Source: Ammoniphilus oxalaticus (GTDB taxonomy: Bacteria > Bacillota > Bacilli > Aneurinibacillales > RAOX-1). From it: a stretch of DNA of 64,000 nucleotides. The notes under the pieces were generated by a model. It did no database searches, was not told the DNA's origin, and was given only the letters and a program-made list of their open reading frames with translations. The position numbers and the translations under genes were made by a program. Positions 23,076 to 61,804 of the stretch are shown piece by piece (positions within the stretch are counted from its first letter, which is position 1; every line of letters begins with the position of its first letter). The stretch is taken from the NCBI RefSeq assembly GCF_003609605.1, contig NZ_MCHY01000011.1, positions 124,001 to 188,000 on the forward strand. Reading direction: 5' to 3'.

Positions 23076-24053
23076 TCACTTCGACTCAAGGAGTCCCATG
23101 ATCGCATCCCCTACCTTTAATGCGTTATGACGCAGGTAAGTTTCATAGATCACAAAATTGTCCTCAATGATCTCAAAACCAAAGCGGCTTAACCTTTCCG
23201 GATGATACGCAACGGGCAAAGCTCCTTTTTCTTTGTACCTGGCCAACACAGCACTCGGAATTTGCGCGTTGTTCACGATAATCGTTTGGAACAAATCGGC
23301 GCCGACATGATTATACAAGGCGTTCACATGATCAGCCGCGTCATAATGGTCTGTTTCGCCTGGTTGAGTCATGACGTTACAAATGTAAGCTTTCTTCGCA
23401 GACGCATCTTTCACTGCCCGTGAAATTCCCGGCACGAGTAAATTAGGTAAAATACTCGTATATAAACTGCCCGGACCGAGCAAGATCAAATCCGCTTGAT
23501 AAATCGCCTCGATTGCCTCTTCAAGCGGATCAACGTCTTTGGGCTCTAAAAAAACACGCTTGATTTTCTTGCCCGTTTTCGGGATTTGCGATTCACCAGA
23601 GACGATCGTGCCGTCTTCCATCTCCGCATTTAAAATAATCGCTTGATTCGCGGCGGGCAAAACTTGTCCGCGCACTGCTAAAACACGGCTAATTTCTTTG
23701 ACAGCCGTCACAAAATCACCTGTAATTTCTTTCATCGCGGCAATAAATAAATTGCCTAAACTATGCCCCGCTAAACCCGCTCCAGAGGAAAAACGATGTT
23801 GAAACAAACTCGCCAGCAAAGGTTCTGTATCCGCTAAGGCAACGATTACGTTGCGAATGTCGCCTGGCGGCGGCATGGATAATTCTTCGCGCAGACGCCC
23901 TGAACTACCGCCGTCATCAGCGACTGTGACGATAGCGGTAATATCCATTGGTTTTTCCTTCAATCCGCGCACAAGCACAGACAAGCCAGTTCCTCCGCCG
24001 ATCACGACGACCTTTTTAAGCTGTTCTCCTTCAAGCTCGGCGACCCTTTCCAT
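23076..24053 (-). CDS. yvcK: Gluconeogenesis factor YvcK (CofD-like)
   Basis: About 325 residues with the nucleotide-sugar-binding Rossmann start KKVVVIGGGTGLSVLVRGLK and the CofD/YvcK motif TVADDGGSSGRLRE. In B. subtilis YvcK binds UDP-sugars, is needed for growth on gluconeogenic carbon and helps localise PBP1. The ATG at 24053 follows GAGGTG by six bases; the longer form from 24095 would overlap rapZ further. Confidence 0.94.
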   Translation of the reverse strand: MERVAELEGEQLKKVVVIGGGTGLSVLVRGLKEKPMDITAIVTVADDGGSSGRLREELSMPPPGDIRNVIVALADTEPLLASLFQHRFSSGAGLAGHSLGNLFIAAMKEITGDFVTAVKEISRVLAVRGQVLPAANQAIILNAEMEDGTIVSGESQIPKTGKKIKRVFLEPKDVDPLEEAIEAIYQADLILLGPGSLYTSILPNLLVPGISRAVKDASAKKAYICNVMTQPGETDHYDAADHVNALYNHVGADLFQTIIVNNAQIPSAVLARYKEKGALPVAYHPERLSRFGFEIIEDNFVIYETYLRHNALKVGDAIMGLLESK

Positions 24054-24072
24054 CTCTGACACCTCACTCTTA

Positions 24073-24945
24073 TTACGAGCGACGATCTCTTTCAATATCG
24101 CGGTGACTTACCCTCGTAATATAGTTTTCTTTAAACTTCTGACCAAGATGCTCGACGATGGAGACAGAGCGGTGTTTTCCACCAGTGCAACCGATTCCAA
24201 TCACGAGTTGGCTTTTCCCTTCCCGCTGGTAATGCGGCAGCGTGTAACCGATAAAATCATCTAATTTCTCGAGAAATTCAATTGATTGATCCCACTGAAA
24301 AACATAATCAGAAACTTCTGATTCGAGCCCTGTCTTTGGCCGCAATTCATCGATATAATGCGGGTTTGGCAAAAACCGTACATCAAAGACAAGATCCGCA
24401 TCAATCGGAATCCCATATTTAAAACCGAAAGAAGTAATGTTAACGATCATCTTAGTTTCTATTGTTGAAAAATAACTCGCTATTTTTTCTTTTAACTGAA
24501 CGGGCTTTAATTGACTGGAATCAACGATTAGGTTTGCTCTCCCTTTCAGTTCCTCTAGCATTTTCCGTTCCGCTTCAATCCCTTCCAATGGAAGCCCCTC
24601 TGGGGCAAGCGGGTGACGTCGTCTCGTTTCTTTATAGCGCTGCACAAGAATTTGATTGGATGAATCTAAAAATAAGATTTGATGATGAATGTGTTGCATT
24701 TCCTCTAACTGCGAAAGCGCGTCGGATAGCGTGTCAAAAAATTCGCGACCGCGCAGGTCAATGACAAGGGCAACCTTTTTTATCCTTCCGCCCGACTGTT
24801 CAATTAATTCGGCGAATTTAGGGATCAATTGCGGCGGTAAATTATCCACACAAAAGAAGCCTAAATCCTCTAAACTTTGCACGGCAACCGTTTTTCCCGC
24901 TCCCGACATCCCTGTAATTATAAGAAGATTGATCTGTTCCGACAT
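24073..24945 (-). CDS. rapZ: RNase adapter/nucleotide-binding protein RapZ (YvcJ)
   Basis: About 290 residues. A Walker A motif, GMSGAGKT, is near the N-terminus, and the C-terminal domain contains [18 protein letters not shown], the RapZ signature. The protein hydrolyses ATP/GTP; in B. subtilis YvcJ is linked to competence, while in E. coli RapZ guides RNase E to GlmZ. An ATG at 24945 follows GAGGTGG by six bases and is preferred to the in-frame TTG at 24960. The nudix gene yvcI that lies next to it in B. subtilis is absent here. Confidence 0.95.
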
Positions 24946-24995
24946 GACTTGCCACCTCAATCCTTTTCCATAAATTCTATTTTACCATCTACTAT

Positions 24996-27770: not shown

Positions 27771-27800
27771 AAAAAAAAGAGACCCTCGCTGGATCTCTTT
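27771..27800 (-). terminator. his operon terminator
   Basis: AAAGAGATCC pairs with GGGTCTCTTT (one bulge) and is followed by T8 on the minus strand. The stem overlaps the hisI stop codon. Confidence 0.8.
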
Positions 27801-28428
27801 AAGATTCGAATCGTTTCGATAGTTCGTTTAATACTTCGTCGAAAGAAAGCTGTTGTTCACGCAGCAAGACGAGCAAATGGTAAATTAAGTCACTTGTCTC
27901 ATAGCGAAGTTCATCATGATCCCGATTTTTGGCGGCAATGATCACTTCACTCGCTTCCTCCCCAACCTTCTTCAAAATTTTATCGACGCCTTCCTCAAAC
28001 AAATACGTTGTGTACGCCCCTTCGGGCCGCTCGGCATGTCGCTTGGCGATCAATGTTTCAAGGTTCGCTATGATATTAAAACGATCTGATCCCATTGGCT
28101 CGGATTCACCATTAAGCGACCGAAAGCAACTGTACGTGTTTTCGTGGCAGGCTGGACCGGCAGGTTCCACTTTAATCAACAACGTATCCCCATCGCAATC
28201 GAGGGCGATGTTGTTCACTTGTTGCGTATTCCCTGATGTCGCTCCCTTATGCCACAATTGTTGTCGCGAACGACTCCAAAACCATGTTTGCCCGCTTTCG
28301 ATTGTTTTCTGAAGCGACTCCTTATTCATATAGGCCATCATCAGCACTTCTTTACTTTGCGCGTCCTGCACGACAGTCGGAATTAAGCCGCTCTCATCAA
28401 ATTTTATTTTCTCCCAATCAACTTTCAT
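27799..28428 (-). CDS. hisI: Bifunctional phosphoribosyl-AMP cyclohydrolase / phosphoribosyl-ATP pyrophosphatase
   Basis: Fused HisI-HisE, 209 residues, catalysing steps two and three of histidine synthesis. The N-terminal cyclohydrolase has [17 protein letters not shown], the metal site DCDGD and Cys in [11 protein letters not shown]. The C-terminal MazG-like pyrophosphatase has the [13 protein letters not shown] helix and [12 protein letters not shown]. Its start lies 11 bases inside hisF. SD AAGGAG. It is the last gene of the operon. Confidence 0.97.
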
Positions 28429-29185
28429 CGCGAACCTCGACTCCTTTCTCCTTAAGAAACCGCTTCACGTCCCGAATCGTTACTTCTTTATAATGAAAGA
28501 TCGAGGCGGCCAAGCCTGCAGCCGCTTTGCCTTCTGTAAAAGCGGCTAGGAAATGGTCCGCATTTCCTGCTCCGCCCGAGGCGATTACAGGGATTTGAAC
28601 CGCTTCCGCAATCGCCCGCGTTAAACCAATATCAAAACCGTCTTTATGCCCGTCGGCGTTCATGCTCGTTAGTAAAATTTCGCCCGCCCCAAACGATTCT
28701 GCCTGTTTGGCCCATTCAACCGCGTCTAAACCACTTTGCGTACGCCCGCCATGTGTGTACACATCCCATGCTTGCCGTTGTTCATTCCAACTGGCGTCAA
28801 TCGCAACGACAATCGCCGCAGAACCAAAGGCTTGGGCCCCTTCGCTAATCAACTCAGGATTGGCAGCTGCTGACGTATTCATCGACACCTTGTTAGCTCC
28901 CGCTTGCAGAACGCGTCGCATATCTTCGACACTATTTATCCCGCCGCCGACAGTTAACGGAATCGTCAATTTTTCAGCCGCCGCTCGGATGACGTCAACC
29001 ATGGTAGCTCGTCCTTCCTGCGATGCGGATATATCCAGCAGGACAAGCTCATCGGCCCCCTCGCGACTATACAGTTCCGCCAGTTCGACAGGATCACCCG
29101 CGTCACGCAAGCCGACAAAGCTAACCCCTTTTACAACGCGTCCATCTTTCACATCGAGACAAGGGATGATTCGTTTCGTGCCCAT
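28418..29185 (-). CDS. hisF: Imidazole glycerol phosphate synthase subunit HisF
   Basis: Cyclase TIM barrel, 255 residues, making imidazole glycerol phosphate and AICAR from PRFAR and ammonia. Catalytic Asp11 ([12 protein letters not shown]) and the second Asp in VVAIDASW are present, as are phosphate-binding loops VGGGI and ASGGAG. HisF normally receives ammonia from the glutaminase HisH, whose gene is not in this cluster. It starts one base after the hisA stop. Confidence 0.97.
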
Positions 29186-29186
29186 C

Positions 29187-29927
29187 CTAGTTCACCTCGA
29201 CTTCTTTTAACGCATCAGCAAGTGTAAAACGGTCCATATAGAGCGCTTTACCGACGATCACACCGCTAATCCCGTCCGCCGCGTGGGGAGCCAATTGTTT
29301 CAGGTCCTCCATCTTGCTGACTCCGCCCGAAGCAATTACCGTCACATTCGCTTCACGCGCCAGTTCAAGGTTTCCTTTAATATTTGGTCCTTCCAGTGTG
29401 CCATCGCGGGCGATGTCGGTGTAAATGAACACCTCCGCCCCTTTTTTAGCTAACTCGCGAGCCAACGTGTCCGCTTTCACTTCCGATGTTTCCAACCAGC
29501 CGTGCGTCGCCACATACCCTTCGCGAGCATCAATGCCGATCACGATTTTCGAGCCGCCAAAGGTCGCCAACGCTTCTTCAGCAAACGGTCGATCTTGAAT
29601 CGCAGAGGTTCCTAAAATAACGCGGGCAACTCCGCCATCCAAATACTTACGCGCATGTTCCATCGTTCGAATTCCCCCGCCAACTTGAATGGGAACGTTG
29701 ACCGTCCGCGCCATTTCCAAGATCGCCTCATCATTGACAGGCGCCCCCGCCTTAGCTCCATCCAAGTCAACGACATGGATCCAAGCGGCGCCCTGCTGTT
29801 CCCACTGTTTTGCCATATCGACTGGAGAATCGCCATACACTGTTTCTTGATCATAATCTCCCTGAAACAACCGCACACATTTTCCGCCGCGAATATCGAT
29901 CGCCGGATAGATGATAAATTCACTCAT
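29187..29927 (-). CDS. hisA: ProFAR isomerase HisA
   Basis: A 246-residue TIM barrel that isomerises the ProFAR intermediate to PRFAR. Catalytic Asp11 ([14 protein letters not shown]), Asp in VIGIDAREG, the VGGGIRT loop and ASGGVS phosphate site are visible. It lies 23 bases downstream of hisB, where hisH stands in most Bacillales operons. Confidence 0.96.
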
Positions 29928-29950
29928 GCTAAAATCCCTCCTCGACCCTT

Positions 29951-30535
29951 TTACAGTAGTCCTTTTGTCGACGGCACACCTTTGACGCGCGGATCGATCG
30001 TCACCGCCTCATCTAAGGCTCGTCCCAACGCTTTGAAAATCGCCTCGATCATGTGATGCGTATTCATGCCGTAATGAAGAATGATATGTAAATTCATACG
30101 CGCTTCCAAGGCAAGTTTGGACATAAATTCATGAACCAATTCGGTCGGGAATTGACCCACCTGTTGGCTTGGATAAGAGGCCCGGTATTCCAAATGGGGC
30201 CGATTGCTTAAATCAATCACCACTTGAGCCAACGTTTCATCCATTGGAACGAATGAATTTCCGTACCGCTTGATTCCCTTTTTATCGCCGAGCGCCTCAC
30301 GCAATACGTTTCCTAAACAGATCGCGACATCTTCCACTGTATGGTGGTAGTCGATCTCGATATCGCCAACCGCTTTTACGGTTAAGTCAAACTGCCCGTG
30401 TTTCGTAAATAAATCTAACATATGATCTAAAAAAGGAACGCCTGTATCAATCTCTGTCTTCCCTTCCCCATCGATCGAAAAACTTAATTCAACACTCGTT
30501 TCCGTTGTTTTACGACTAATTTGACTGCTACGCAT
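29951..30535 (-). CDS. hisB: Imidazoleglycerol-phosphate dehydratase HisB
   Basis: A 194-residue Mn-dependent dehydratase converting IGP to imidazole acetol phosphate. The two pseudo-repeated metal motifs are present: [12 protein letters not shown] and, near the C-terminus, [15 protein letters not shown]. It is the monofunctional form without a histidinol phosphatase domain. It starts three bases after hisD with SD GAAAGGGG. Confidence 0.97.
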
Positions 30536-30538
30536 CTT

Positions 30539-31819
30539 TTAGTTACCCCTTTCTTTCTTCAACCGCAATTCGATCGCTCGAGCATGGGCGGTTAATCCTT
30601 CCGATTCAGCCATAGCGATAATTTTCGGTCCATGTTCAAGTAAATCTTGCTTACTATATGAAATTAAACTCGATTTTTTAATGAAGTCATCCACATTTAA
30701 CGGGGATGAAAAACGAGCGGTGCCATTCGTCGGAAGTACGTGGTTCGGCCCCGCAAAATAGTCTCCAACTGGCTCTGAACTGTATTCGCCAAGAAAGATC
30801 GCGCCTGCATTCTCAATTTTGCCTAGCTGCTCAAACGGATGCTCGATCATCACTTCGAGATGTTCAGGCGCAAGCTCGTTAACGACTTTGATCCCTTCTT
30901 CCAAATCCTCAACGAGACAGATCGCTCCATAATCCCGAATCGAAGCTTCAGCAATTTCTCGACGCGGCAAATTGGCGAGTTGCTGCTCCAATTCAATTTG
31001 CGTCTGCGCCGCTAACTCTTTTGACGGTGTGACCAACACGGCCGATGCCATCGGATCATGTTCCGCTTGCGACAACAGATCGGCCGCGATATAGGCTGGA
31101 TTCGCCAGTTCATCAGCTAATACAACAATTTCACTTGGTCCAGCGACCATATCAATGTCAACAAGACCGAACACCTCACGTTTCGCCAGGGCAACATAAA
31201 TGTTACCGGGCCCGACAATTTTATCAACTGATCGGATGGTCTTTGTCCCGTACGCGAGGGCTGCGATCGCTTGCGCTCCACCAACTTTGAAAATTTCAGT
31301 TACACCCGCAATTTTCGCGGCGGTAAGCACCCCCGGATCAATGCGACCTTCTTGATTCGGGGGCGTCACCATCACAATTTCTTTCACACCCGCAACTTGA
31401 GCGGGAATCGCGTTCATCAGTACTGATGAAGGATAAGCCGCCGTGCCGCCAGGAACATAAATCCCGACCCGTTGCAATGGACGCACCAACTGACCAAGCA
31501 TCGTTCCTGTCGGTGAGGTTTCGATCCACGATTGACGCGCTTGTTTTTCATGAAAACGTCGAATATTAATGGCAGCCGCTTCTAACGCTTCCCGCACTTG
31601 CGAGGACACCTCATCAAGCGCGTTGTTCCGTTCCTGTTCGGTCACAGCCAGCTGCTCTAAGCGAACACGATCAAACTGTTCTGTAAAGGAAAAGACAGCC
31701 TGATCTCCTGTTTCCTTTACAGCGCTTATGATAGATAGTACGGCTTGGCGCTGAGTTTCTGTTCCTGTGTCGACATCTCTTTTTGTAGAGAAGTGAGCGG
31801 CGTTGACGATCTTGATCAT
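30539..31819 (-). CDS. hisD: Histidinol dehydrogenase HisD
   Basis: A 426-residue Zn and NAD-dependent enzyme catalysing the last two oxidations to histidine. Family motifs: [24 protein letters not shown], the Zn-binding Gln/His in LLSQAEHDP, and APEHLEVM. Its ATG overlaps the hisG stop in ATGA. Confidence 0.97.
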
Positions 31820-32451
31820 ACTTCTACTCCTTTCGGAACCACGGTTGAAAATTTATCAATTATAAAATCAATGGCCTCGCTCTTCATCCGATAACTAACC
31901 CGATTGGCAATCAATCGGCTCGTAATCGAGGTGATCGTTTCCAACTCAACTAAGCCGTTATCTTTTAACGTTTGACCCGTCGATACAATATCGACAATCC
32001 GATCCGCCAAACCAATTAACGGGGCCAGCTCAATCGAACCGTTCAGCTTGATAATTTCGACCTGAGCTCCTTGTTCACGGAAGTAGCGCGACGCTAATTT
32101 CGGAAATTTGGTGGCTACTCGCGGCGCGTCTGTTGGCTGCCAATCAGGCAGACCCGCCACAGACAACCGACAGGCGCTAATCTTTAAATCGAGCAATTCA
32201 TATACATCGCGTTCTTCTTCCAGCAACACATCTTTGCCAACGACACCGATATCGGCGACACCATATTCAACATACGTCGGCACATCGACAGGCTTTGCTA
32301 GAATAAAGTCCATTCCCGCCTCTTCAACAGGGATAATCAACTTACGTGACTCCTCAAATTCGGGCGGAATAGCCAAACCCGCTCGACGCAGTAGCTCCAC
32401 CGCTTCTTCAAAAATTCTTCCCTTCGGCATTGCCACGGTCAATCTAGGCAT
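31816..32451 (-). CDS. hisG: ATP phosphoribosyltransferase catalytic subunit HisG (short form)
   Basis: About 211 residues, the short form that lacks the C-terminal regulatory domain and needs HisZ. It carries the substrate motif [10 protein letters not shown] at the N-terminus and the PRPP loop [16 protein letters not shown]. First, histidine-feedback-controlled step of the pathway. The ATG at 32451 is eight bases after AGGAGG; an in-frame GTG at 32460 overlaps that SD. It overlaps hisZ by eight bases. Confidence 0.96.
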
Positions 32452-33598
32452 CGACTCCACCTCCTCTGAGATCGATCAATCCATCCACAGGCGCGCTGGG
32501 CGGGACGGTTCCCATGATGACGATTGCTTCACCGCGCAGCTCCCGCGCTTTACGAATCGCCTGCGCCCTCGTTTGCTGATCATAAATAATATACATCTTT
32601 CTTTCTGTCGATTGCGGTTGTAATGGCGACGCTTCAATTAAACGGTCCATCTTAATCGCAAAGCCTGTCGACGGGTTATCGACGCCAAAACGAGAAATCA
32701 ACTGATCATACCGTCCTCCGCCGCACACAGGCCAACCTTGATCCTTGGCGTACCCCTCAAACAAAATACCTGTATAATAATCCAAACTGCTTAGCAAATT
32801 TAAATCAAACATAATATATTCGGTCACTTCATACGCTTCAAGAGCCAACCACAATTGTTGCAAATTACGGACCGCTTCGCGCGCGCGACCATTGACCGTC
32901 AACGCTTCCGCATCCGCTAAACGATTGATTCCGCCGCGCAACTTCAAAAGACCGATTAAACGTTCTTTCTCTGTGGCAGCGATCGGTAGGTTGTCCACAT
33001 CTTCCCGAAACCCAACATAATCAAATTGATGCAGCCGCTCTTTCAGCCTGACTCGATCCTCTTCTTTCGGGACGGTTTCTTCCAATAATCCTTCGATAAA
33101 CCCAACATGTCCGACAACAATTTTGAACTTCTCTAAACCTGCAGCCCGCAATGCCTCTGATGCCAACGCAATCACTTCCGCATCAGCGTCAATCGTCTCA
33201 TCCCCGATCAGTTCGACCCCGCTTTGCGTAAATTCAGCATTGCGTCCCGCTTCATGATGTTGCGCCCGAAACACACTCGTATTATACATCAAGCGTAACG
33301 GACGCGGTTCATCTTTTAGTAAAGATGATACAACGCGGGCGATCGGTGTCGTCACATCCGGTCTCATCACTAATGTTCGGCCTTGACGGTCCAACAATTT
33401 AAACAAGCGATTATCGAGCGTGGCGCTTGCTTCGCCCACCGTCTCGTAATATTCCAACGTCGGCGTCAAAATTTCTTGATATCCCCAACGCATCATACAT
33501 TGATTCACTCTATATTCGATATCCCGTTGTTTCGCTAACAGATCCGGGAGATAGTCCCGCATCCCTAATGGTTTCTCAAAACTAAGCGGCTTGCTCAC
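32444..33598 (-). CDS. hisZ: ATP phosphoribosyltransferase regulatory subunit HisZ
   Basis: A 384-residue paralogue of histidyl-tRNA synthetase that lacks synthetase activity and activates short-form HisG. It shows class-II synthetase motifs, with [12 protein letters not shown] near residue 78 and a degenerate C-terminus. The start is GTG with SD GAGGTGG. First gene of hisZGDBAFI; its promoter is at 33667-33696. Confidence 0.95.
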
Positions 33599-59686: not shown

Positions 59687-60646
59687 CTATGACATAATTG
59701 CCGCCATAATCGCCTTTTGAGCATGTAAACGGTTTTCCGCTTCATCGAATATGACCGAGTTCGCTCCGTCAATGACCTCTGCCGACACCTCTTCACCGCG
59801 GTGGGCGGGTAAACAATGCATGAAGATGTAGTCCGCGTTCGCACGTTCGACTAATGAACCATTCACCTGATAATTGGCAAAAGCTTTCTCCCTTTTTTCC
59901 TGCTCCTCTTCTTGCCCCATACTCGCCCATACATCTGTATAGATGACATCGGCCTGTGTTGCCGCTTCAATCGGATTATCCGTGATCAACACGTTGCTGC
60001 CGCTCTCTTTAGCAAATTCCTTGGCCATGGACACGATCGCTTCATCGGGCATATAACCTTGCGGCGAGGCCACGGCAATGTCCATGCCCATTTTTGCCGC
60101 TCCGATCAGCAATGAATGGGCCATATTGTTCCCATCACCAACGTAGGCAAATTTTAATCCTTCCAACTTTCCTTTATGTTCGATAATCGTTTGGAAATCA
60201 GCCATAATTTGACACGGATGAAACTCATCTGTCAAACCATTGATCACTGGAATCGACGCATATTTCGCCAACTCCTCGACGATCTCATGTCCGAACGTGC
60301 GGATCATGATTCCGTCCACATAGCGGGACAACACTTGAGCGGTGTCAGAGATCGGTTCACCCCGACCAATCTGCAAATCTTTTGAACTAAAAAACATCCC
60401 CTGACCGCCAAGTTGATAAATCCCAACTTCAAACGAAACCCGTGTACGGGTGGAAGCCTTCTCAAAGATCATTCCCAACGCTTTTCCTTTTAGAGGTTGA
60501 TAGGACCCTCCCGCCTTTTGCAATTTCTTCAATTCCGCCGCAAGCGCCAATAGATCGGTTAGTTCTTGCTTTGTAAAATCGGCGAGACGCAAAAAATCTC
60601 GTCCCGTTAAATTCAACCGTTTGTGTAAAAGTTCAATCGTTGTCAT
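59687..60646 (-). CDS. argF: Ornithine carbamoyltransferase
   Basis: A 319-residue enzyme making citrulline from ornithine and carbamoyl phosphate. Carbamoyl-phosphate loop STRTRVSFEVG, DEFHPCQIMADF, and the ornithine-binding FMHCLPAHRGEEV are present. Last gene of argC-argB-argD-argF. An anabolic role is supported by context; no arcA or arcC is nearby. Confidence 0.97.
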   Translation of the reverse strand: MTTIELLHKRLNLTGRDFLRLADFTKQELTDLLALAAELKKLQKAGGSYQPLKGKALGMIFEKASTRTRVSFEVGIYQLGGQGMFFSSKDLQIGRGEPISDTAQVLSRYVDGIMIRTFGHEIVEELAKYASIPVINGLTDEFHPCQIMADFQTIIEHKGKLEGLKFAYVGDGNNMAHSLLIGAAKMGMDIAVASPQGYMPDEAIVSMAKEFAKESGSNVLITDNPIEAATQADVIYTDVWASMGQEEEQEKREKAFANYQVNGSLVERANADYIFMHCLPAHRGEEVSAEVIDGANSVIFDEAENRLHAQKAIMAAIMS

Positions 60647-60670
60647 CTCGTCACTCTCTTTCTTTGATCG

Positions 60671-61804
60671 TTATGCTTGCGCCGCCGCTCCTTGATGCTT
60701 GGCGATCACTTGCTTGATTTTTTCAATCGCAAACTCAAGTTCTTCTTGTGTAATTGTAAAAGGAGGCAACAAGCGTAACACGTTCGGTCCCGCCATTAAC
60801 ACGAGAATGCCTTCGTCACGCAACTCACTAATAATCGGGGCCACCTCAACCTTACACTCCACCCCGACGAGCAACCCTTGGCCGCGACCGCCTAACTCAC
60901 TGCGCAAGTACTCCCCTTTTTGCTGGACTTGCGGTAAATACGATCCCACTTCCTCTAATGTCGCCAAACCCGCCGCCATTGCCAACGGATTCCCCCCGAA
61001 CGTCGAACCATGAGTGCCTGGGCCAAAGCTATCCGCCAAAAATTCTTTTGCGATCATCGCCCCAACAGGGAATCCGCTGCCAAGCCCCTTCGCCGAAGTC
61101 ACGATATCGGGTTCAAACTCGTAGTGCTGAAATCCGAACCATTTTCCTGTGCGACCAATGCCCGTTTGAATCTCATCGATAATCAACAGCAACTGATGCT
61201 CTTTCGCCAACGCCGCAATTTGCCTAACCCAATCCGAATCCGCGGGATTTACACCGCCTTCACCTTGCACCATTTCCAACATCACGGCGCACGTCTGCGG
61301 TGTAATCGCCGCTTGCAGCGCTTCTAGATCATTATACGGGACCGTTTTAAACCCAGCTGGCAACGGTTCAAAACCTTCTTTCACTTTATCTTGTCCCGTC
61401 GCTGTCAATGTCGCCAACGTCCGTCCATGAAAAGATTGTTCAAACGTAATAATTTCATACTTTCCTTGCTGATTCCCGTATCTCCGCGCTAATTTGATCG
61501 CCGCTTCGTTCGCTTCCGCTCCGCTATTGCAAAAAAACACACGATCCAAACCTGAGATTTCCGCTAATTTAGTCGCCAATTCTTCTTGAATCGGAATCTG
61601 AAATAAATTCGAACAGTGCCACAGCGTATCAAGTTGCTCGGCGACCTTCGCCTTCACCTTAGGCGGAACGTTACCAAGAGAATTCACTGCAATTCCCGAA
61701 ACAAGGTCTAAATATTTATTGCCTTCCGCATCAAATACATAGTTCCCTTCCCCTTTGACGATCGAAATCGGCCAACGTCCATAATTCGAAAATAAATGGC
61801 TCAT
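60671..61804 (-). CDS. argD: Acetylornithine transaminase
   Basis: A 377-residue class-III PLP aminotransferase. NSGAEANEAAIKLARR, ITFEQSFHGRT, LIIDEIQTGIGRTG and the PLP Lys in TSAKGLGSGFPVGAM are visible. Converts N-acetylglutamate semialdehyde to N-acetylornithine. Placed between argB and argF, three bases after argB. Confidence 0.95.
   Translation of the reverse strand: MSHLFSNYGRWPISIVKGEGNYVFDAEGNKYLDLVSGIAVNSLGNVPPKVKAKVAEQLDTLWHCSNLFQIPIQEELATKLAEISGLDRVFFCNSGAEANEAAIKLARRYGNQQGKYEIITFEQSFHGRTLATLTATGQDKVKEGFEPLPAGFKTVPYNDLEALQAAITPQTCAVMLEMVQGEGGVNPADSDWVRQIAALAKEHQLLLIIDEIQTGIGRTGKWFGFQHYEFEPDIVTSAKGLGSGFPVGAMIAKEFLADSFGPGTHGSTFGGNPLAMAAGLATLEEVGSYLPQVQQKGEYLRSELGGRGQGLLVGVECKVEVAPIISELRDEGILVLMAGPNVLRLLPPFTITQEELEFAIEKIKQVIAKHQGAAAQA

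Follow-up and report, generated by a model that had tools for sequence, protein, structure and literature searches.

The histidine operon of Ammoniphilus oxalaticus lacks hisH, and the organism very probably makes histidine with HisF alone, on free ammonia, as one part of a wider loss of glutaminases. We analyzed a 64,000-nucleotide stretch of its genome (contig NZ_MCHY01000011.1, positions 124,001 to 188,000; hereafter the window), together with the rest of the genome and the genomes of relatives. At least seven glutamine-splitting parts have been lost or disabled, and this suggests that much of the biosynthesis of this bacterium runs on free ammonia.

Seven his genes lie on the minus strand of the window and read from hisZ (position 33598) to hisIE (27799) in the order hisZGDBAF(IE). 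Each is an intact open frame that scores above its NCBIfam cut-off: hisZ (32444..33598; NF008941, 505 bits versus 447), the short form of hisG (31816..32460; TIGR00070, 207 versus 76), hisD (30539..31819; TIGR00069, 575 versus 244), hisB (29951..30535; NF002115, 356 versus 289), hisA (29187..29927; TIGR00007, 286 versus 229), hisF, encoding the cyclase (28418..29185; TIGR00735, 366 versus 294.55), and the bifunctional hisIE (27799..28428; NF002747, 292 versus 187). The hisC gene (361 bits versus a cut-off of 277) is on a different contig, within the trp operon. The initial annotation had described a hisZGDBAFI operon without hisH; the gene set and the absence hold, and its hisI is in fact a hisIE fusion. 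It had also placed hisA 23 bases after hisB with no hisH between them, and the coordinates bear this out: hisB ends at 29951, hisA starts at 29927, and the intervening minus-strand bases, 29928..29950, are too few for hisH and contain a ribosome-binding-like GGAGG. All three same-family genomes read hisB-hisH-hisA, with the hisH motif GICLGMQ.

A genome-wide search for HisH, which the initial annotation had proposed, covered all 13 contigs of the genome (3,319,172 bases; completeness 99.93%) and returned no hisH. The sole match to TIGR01855 scores 39.8 bits (cut-off, 105.4) and is a 523-aa frame that we read as GuaA (GMP synthase). As a control, the same model gave matches in 14 of 14 control genomes, in 13 of them above the cut-off. 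The suggestion that hisH had moved is therefore excluded as far as an assembly of this completeness reaches, no match lying above the cut-off. Counted without regard to hisF, 54 of the 61 genomes examined (this one and 60 relatives) had hisH above the cut-off, the three of the same family included. Because those three keep hisH between hisB and hisA, the loss occurred in this lineage. The vicinity of hisF was surveyed at the best 80 of at least 597 named hisF loci, using a HisH profile built from four sequences, and hisH lay within the fetched stretch in 69. Ten of the other 11 come from genomes with a TIGR01855 match above the cut-off elsewhere (one of these being a frameshifted Psychrobacillus copy and one a partial match), and the last, a fragmented Chloroflexi MAG, has none above it.

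The initial annotation had also called for a check of the HisF interface, and this revealed changes in residues on the HisH side, including D98N and Q123A. When the window protein was aligned with 85 others (80 from the named loci and five from relatives), it departed at six of the 105 columns in which 90% or more of the others share one residue (F49L, D98N, Q123A, C124A, D176N, and D222A). It keeps D11, D130, R5, E46, and K99, of which D11 and D130 are presumably the catalytic Asp residues. In a gap-free alignment, positions 98 and 123 match residues 98 and 123 of the numbering reference 2wjz, which we take to be T. maritima HisF; Q123 and D222 also belong to the end of the barrel that faces HisH. 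D98 and Q123 are each conserved in 84 of the 85 other proteins, the exception being from Psychrobacillus. In the active complex, D98 moves 3.6 Å and contacts N12 of HisH, according to PMC8115485. Two marks of a glutamine-dependent HisFH are thus missing here: the HisH subunit is absent, and D98 of HisF is Asn.

The median number of departures across the 86 proteins is one, and the same-family HisF proteins have 0, 1, and 1. The window protein does not rank first, being preceded by those of L054 (Psychrobacillus, 14), L065 (10), and L088 (7) and tied at six by those of L091 and L074. Because five of the 86 depart as often or more, the count by itself is nothing special; what matters is which residues changed, namely D98 and Q123. 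D176N is shared with two of the three same-family proteins, and A124 (L067, L092) and A222 (L038) occur in HisF from genomes that have hisH.

Psychrobacillus sp. NEAU-3TGS supplies a second his operon without hisH. Like the window, it carries hisZGDBAF(IE) with hisH missing between hisB and hisA (L054, 5244-5257 and 5995-6750) and an Asn at position 98 of HisF. This HisF, the most divergent of the set, is N98/N123/K124, the only one among the 85 compared with Asn at both 98 and 123; the window protein is N98/A123. Unlike the window genome, Psychrobacillus has frames read as PabA, PdxT, and PurQ that retain their cysteines, and it has a second HisF, above the hisF cut-off, which adjoins the frameshifted hisH (L173, 498-1887), has D, Q, and C at 98, 123, and 124 by eye, and might serve histidine synthesis. 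The HisF changes in the two lineages look separate, because the window protein's own family, at 77-78% identity to it, keeps D98. They suggest that the HisH-facing side of HisF may decay once the his operon is without hisH, and the Psychrobacillus genome suggests that losing hisH does not by itself entail the wider glutaminase losses. Change at both D98 and Q123 in two lineages with a hisH-less his operon supports a role for D98 in coupling to HisH.

Other glutaminase parts are also absent from the genome. In this part of the analysis, sequence and place rather than profile matches were the basis for naming GuaA, PyrG, CarB, PurL, and the genes of relatives. The genome has four PF00117 frames: CarA, GuaA, PyrG, and a 264-aa frame whose gamma-glutamyl-GABA hydrolase match falls below the cut-off (115.5 versus 266 bits). 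Because these are the only ones, PabA/TrpG is absent. Its synthase partners are in place: trpE (567 bits versus 518) belongs to an aro-trp-hisC-tyrA-aroA cluster, and only 45 bases separate pabB from pabC downstream, with no pabA between them. The pabB frame falls short of the cut-off of every TrpE and PabB model considered and was named by its place in the folate operon. All three same-family genomes have pabA, intact between pabB and pabC in two of them (G002 and G003; GVCLGHQ) and, in G001, intact but flanked by a transporter-like frame and folP, with neither pabB nor pabC adjoining (L132, 4709-7049).

PdxT gave no match at E<=1 anywhere in the genome, where pdxS is followed by serS; the three same-family genomes all read pdxS-pdxT-serS, with the motif GTCAG. 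By eye, the gap between pdxS and serS (L180, 2990-3270) holds a T-box-like leader before serS. Within the window, argD (60671..61804; TIGR00707, 480 bits versus 410) and the ornithine carbamoyltransferase gene argF (59687..60646; TIGR00658, 459 versus 281), both on the minus strand, are separated by a 24-base minus-strand junction (60647..60670) from which the arginine carAB is missing, the order in all three same-family genomes being argD-carA-carB-argF (L183-L185); a single CarA scores above the cut-off in the genome. These four absences (HisH, PabA/TrpG, PdxT, and the arginine carAB) are each set against same-family genomes that have the part. GltB, the large subunit of glutamate synthase, was not found either, PF00310 at E<=10 matching two PurF proteins only; this absence may predate the lineage.

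Three further glutaminases are present as single copies that have lost the nucleophile. The sole CarA (TIGR01368, 462 bits versus 307) reads FGIGLGHQ in place of the usual GICLGHQ, with Gly (codon GGA) for the catalytic Cys, and keeps the HPE of the triad. At 30 of 30 loci from 30 relatives, which are the best-scoring loci rather than a random sample, CarA has the Cys (26 G[IV]CLGHQ, three GICMGHQ, and one GVCLGQQ). The sole PurQ (303 bits versus 212) reads GVSNGFQ, with Ser (codon AGC) for the catalytic Cys; the motif is GVCNGFQ in four of four relatives and GICNGFQ in PDB 3d54. CarA and PurQ both keep their fold, and for both the missing nucleophile stands out against same-family genomes. 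GlmS (689 bits versus 418) has Ser in place of Cys1; because a GTG directly precedes the Ser codon and GGGGTGA lies upstream, its product likely begins Met-Ser-Gly-Ile. The same residues are replaced in E. coli CarA 1c30 (Ser, Gly here) and GlmS 3ooj (Ala, Ser here), which are laboratory mutants, whereas the replacements here are natural and affect sole copies.

The nucleophile is kept in GuaA (GICYGMQ), PyrG (GICLGMQ), two PurF proteins (CGIFG and CGVFG), and AsnB (MCGF), so that glutamine use is not abolished. The two PurF genes, full-length, above the cut-off, and with the N-terminal Cys motif, are on contig 8 (L140, 1054-2433) and contig 13 (L139, 772-2211), the former about 4 kb from glmS. 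A frame read as glmM (L153, 7306-8649) is not followed by glmS, which is on contig 8 (L158). In the window, frames read as GlmR (YvcK) and RapZ/YvcJ occupy 23076-24960, near the his operon, in this genome with a Cys1-less GlmS; both proteins are reported to be linked to GlmS in B. subtilis.

We propose that ammonia from the cell pool, rather than ammonia released from glutamine by HisH, would enter HisF and join PRFAR, and that the same supply would feed TrpE, PabB, PdxS, CarB, PurL, and GlmS. Of the parts dispensed with, HisH, PabA/TrpG, PdxT, and the arginine CarA have been deleted, with GltB also gone, and the sole CarA, PurQ, and GlmS have been retained as folded proteins without a nucleophile. 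The synthase partners still in place are HisF, TrpE, PabB, PdxS, CarB, and PurL, whose frames are open in the genome alongside the absences and residue changes described above. An NADP glutamate dehydrogenase (753 bits versus 536) would provide glutamate when ammonium is high. Each synthase would then work on free ammonia in vivo, and the likely cost would be a dependence on high external ammonium. The Ser1 GlmS needs further explanation, because the E. coli enzyme is not known to accept free ammonia. Dependence on ammonia had been one of the options in the initial annotation, and it is strongly supported by the parallel losses at the TrpE, PabB, PdxS, CarB, PurL, and GlmS steps. We found no paper on a genome-wide loss of glutaminases among the matches listed, as judged by titles and the beginnings of abstracts.

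HisF might instead be served by another amidotransferase of the cell that docks on it and supplies ammonia from glutamine, an option also raised earlier. GuaA, PyrG, and the 264-aa class I frame do retain a cysteine, and the altered HisF residues might reflect adjustment to a different partner. Yet the GuaA and PyrG frames have a synthetase part of their own, and the 264-aa frame has the sub-cut-off hydrolase match noted above, which leaves no good candidate among the PF00117 frames. HisF, moreover, is changed at the HisH side, where D98, the HisH contact in the active complex, is Asn. A single new partner for HisF would also leave unexplained why TrpE, PabB, and PdxS no longer have their glutaminases and why the glutaminases of CarB, PurL, and GlmS lack the nucleophile. 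We consider such a substitution very unlikely.

The organism could also be a histidine auxotroph and the operon a relic. In vitro, E. coli HisF can use ammonia when its concentration is high and the pH is above 8, and hisH mutants of E. coli and Salmonella are auxotrophic despite ammonia, the missing subunit being essential in both, according to PMC3896937. Against decay, the eight his genes looked for, the seven of the operon and hisC, are intact and above their cut-offs, HisF keeps D11, D130, R5, E46, and K99, and the five his proteins compared with same-family G001 are 72-89% identical. The same pattern recurs in the trp, folate, PLP, purine, and pyrimidine genes. Auxotrophy, the remaining option of the initial annotation, thus seems improbable as far as gene content can tell. 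That hisH is missing through gaps or errors in the assembly, a draft in 13 contigs, is extremely improbable, and we rejected it: the hisB-hisA junction, a clean spacer of 23 bases, is internal to a contig, as are the other gene gaps, completeness is 99.93%, and the GGA codon of CarA is two bases away from both TGT and TGC.

The reading that HisF works alone on ammonia has a counterpart in Corynebacterium glutamicum. A hisH deletion strain of this species grows on ammonia minimal medium, and its hisF complements an E. coli hisH deletion, both given as unpublished observations in PMC3896937. There, as proposed here, HisF works without HisH when given ammonia; C. glutamicum, however, keeps a working hisH, whereas in the window lineage the gene is gone and the HisH-side residues are changed. 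The mitochondrial carbamoyl-phosphate synthase (ammonia) (PDB 5dot) similarly uses free ammonia and keeps a glutaminase-like region without the nucleophile. It is one enzyme, whereas here several bacterial pathways that are unrelated to one another have changed, and the residue in CarA is Gly. The NAD synthetase family has glutamine-using members, with a fused glutaminase domain in eukaryotes, and ammonia use is the contrast drawn in the title of PMC3376133. That is a single family, whereas here the change runs across many enzymes of one cell. Sporosarcina pasteurii is described in PMC7775470 as needing ammonia, which urea can replace; the likeness is in the ammonia requirement.

Some 4-9 kb ahead of the window, the genome carries genes for oxalyl-CoA decarboxylase (881 bits), for formyl-CoA transferase (679 bits), and for an oxalate/formate antiporter (420 bits). 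These are consistent with the genus Ammoniphilus, which NCBI places in the Aneurinibacillus group. Three neighboring frames (L148, 9551-14531) and a fourth (L157, 10857-12152), the last a formyl-CoA transferase by profile, begin alike, which suggests an amplification of oxalate genes. Ammoniphilus was reportedly described by Zaitsev et al. in 1998, in the title of their paper, as aerobic, ammonium-dependent, and obligately oxalotrophic, and its ammonium dependence would follow from the gene set found here.

On balance, we think it fairly probable that the bacterium is obligately dependent on ammonium and has shifted most of its amide and amine biosynthesis away from glutamine and onto free ammonia. 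Subunits would have been deleted where the synthase works alone, and only the nucleophile would have been replaced where the glutaminase is needed as a scaffold (CarA and PurQ) or is part of the enzyme itself (GlmS). The gene set would then be the cause of the ammonium dependence, and GlmS and HisF would be naturally occurring enzymes that use ammonia. That cells channel ammonia from glutamine rather than use it free is a rule for which glutamine amidotransferases are the textbook case, and a cell in which at least seven of these glutaminases are removed or disabled is a natural test of it. The genome offers candidate ammonia-using forms of HisF, CarAB, PurLQ, and GlmS for comparison with their glutamine-using relatives, and its gene set provides a concrete genetic hypothesis for bacteria that need plenty of ammonium.
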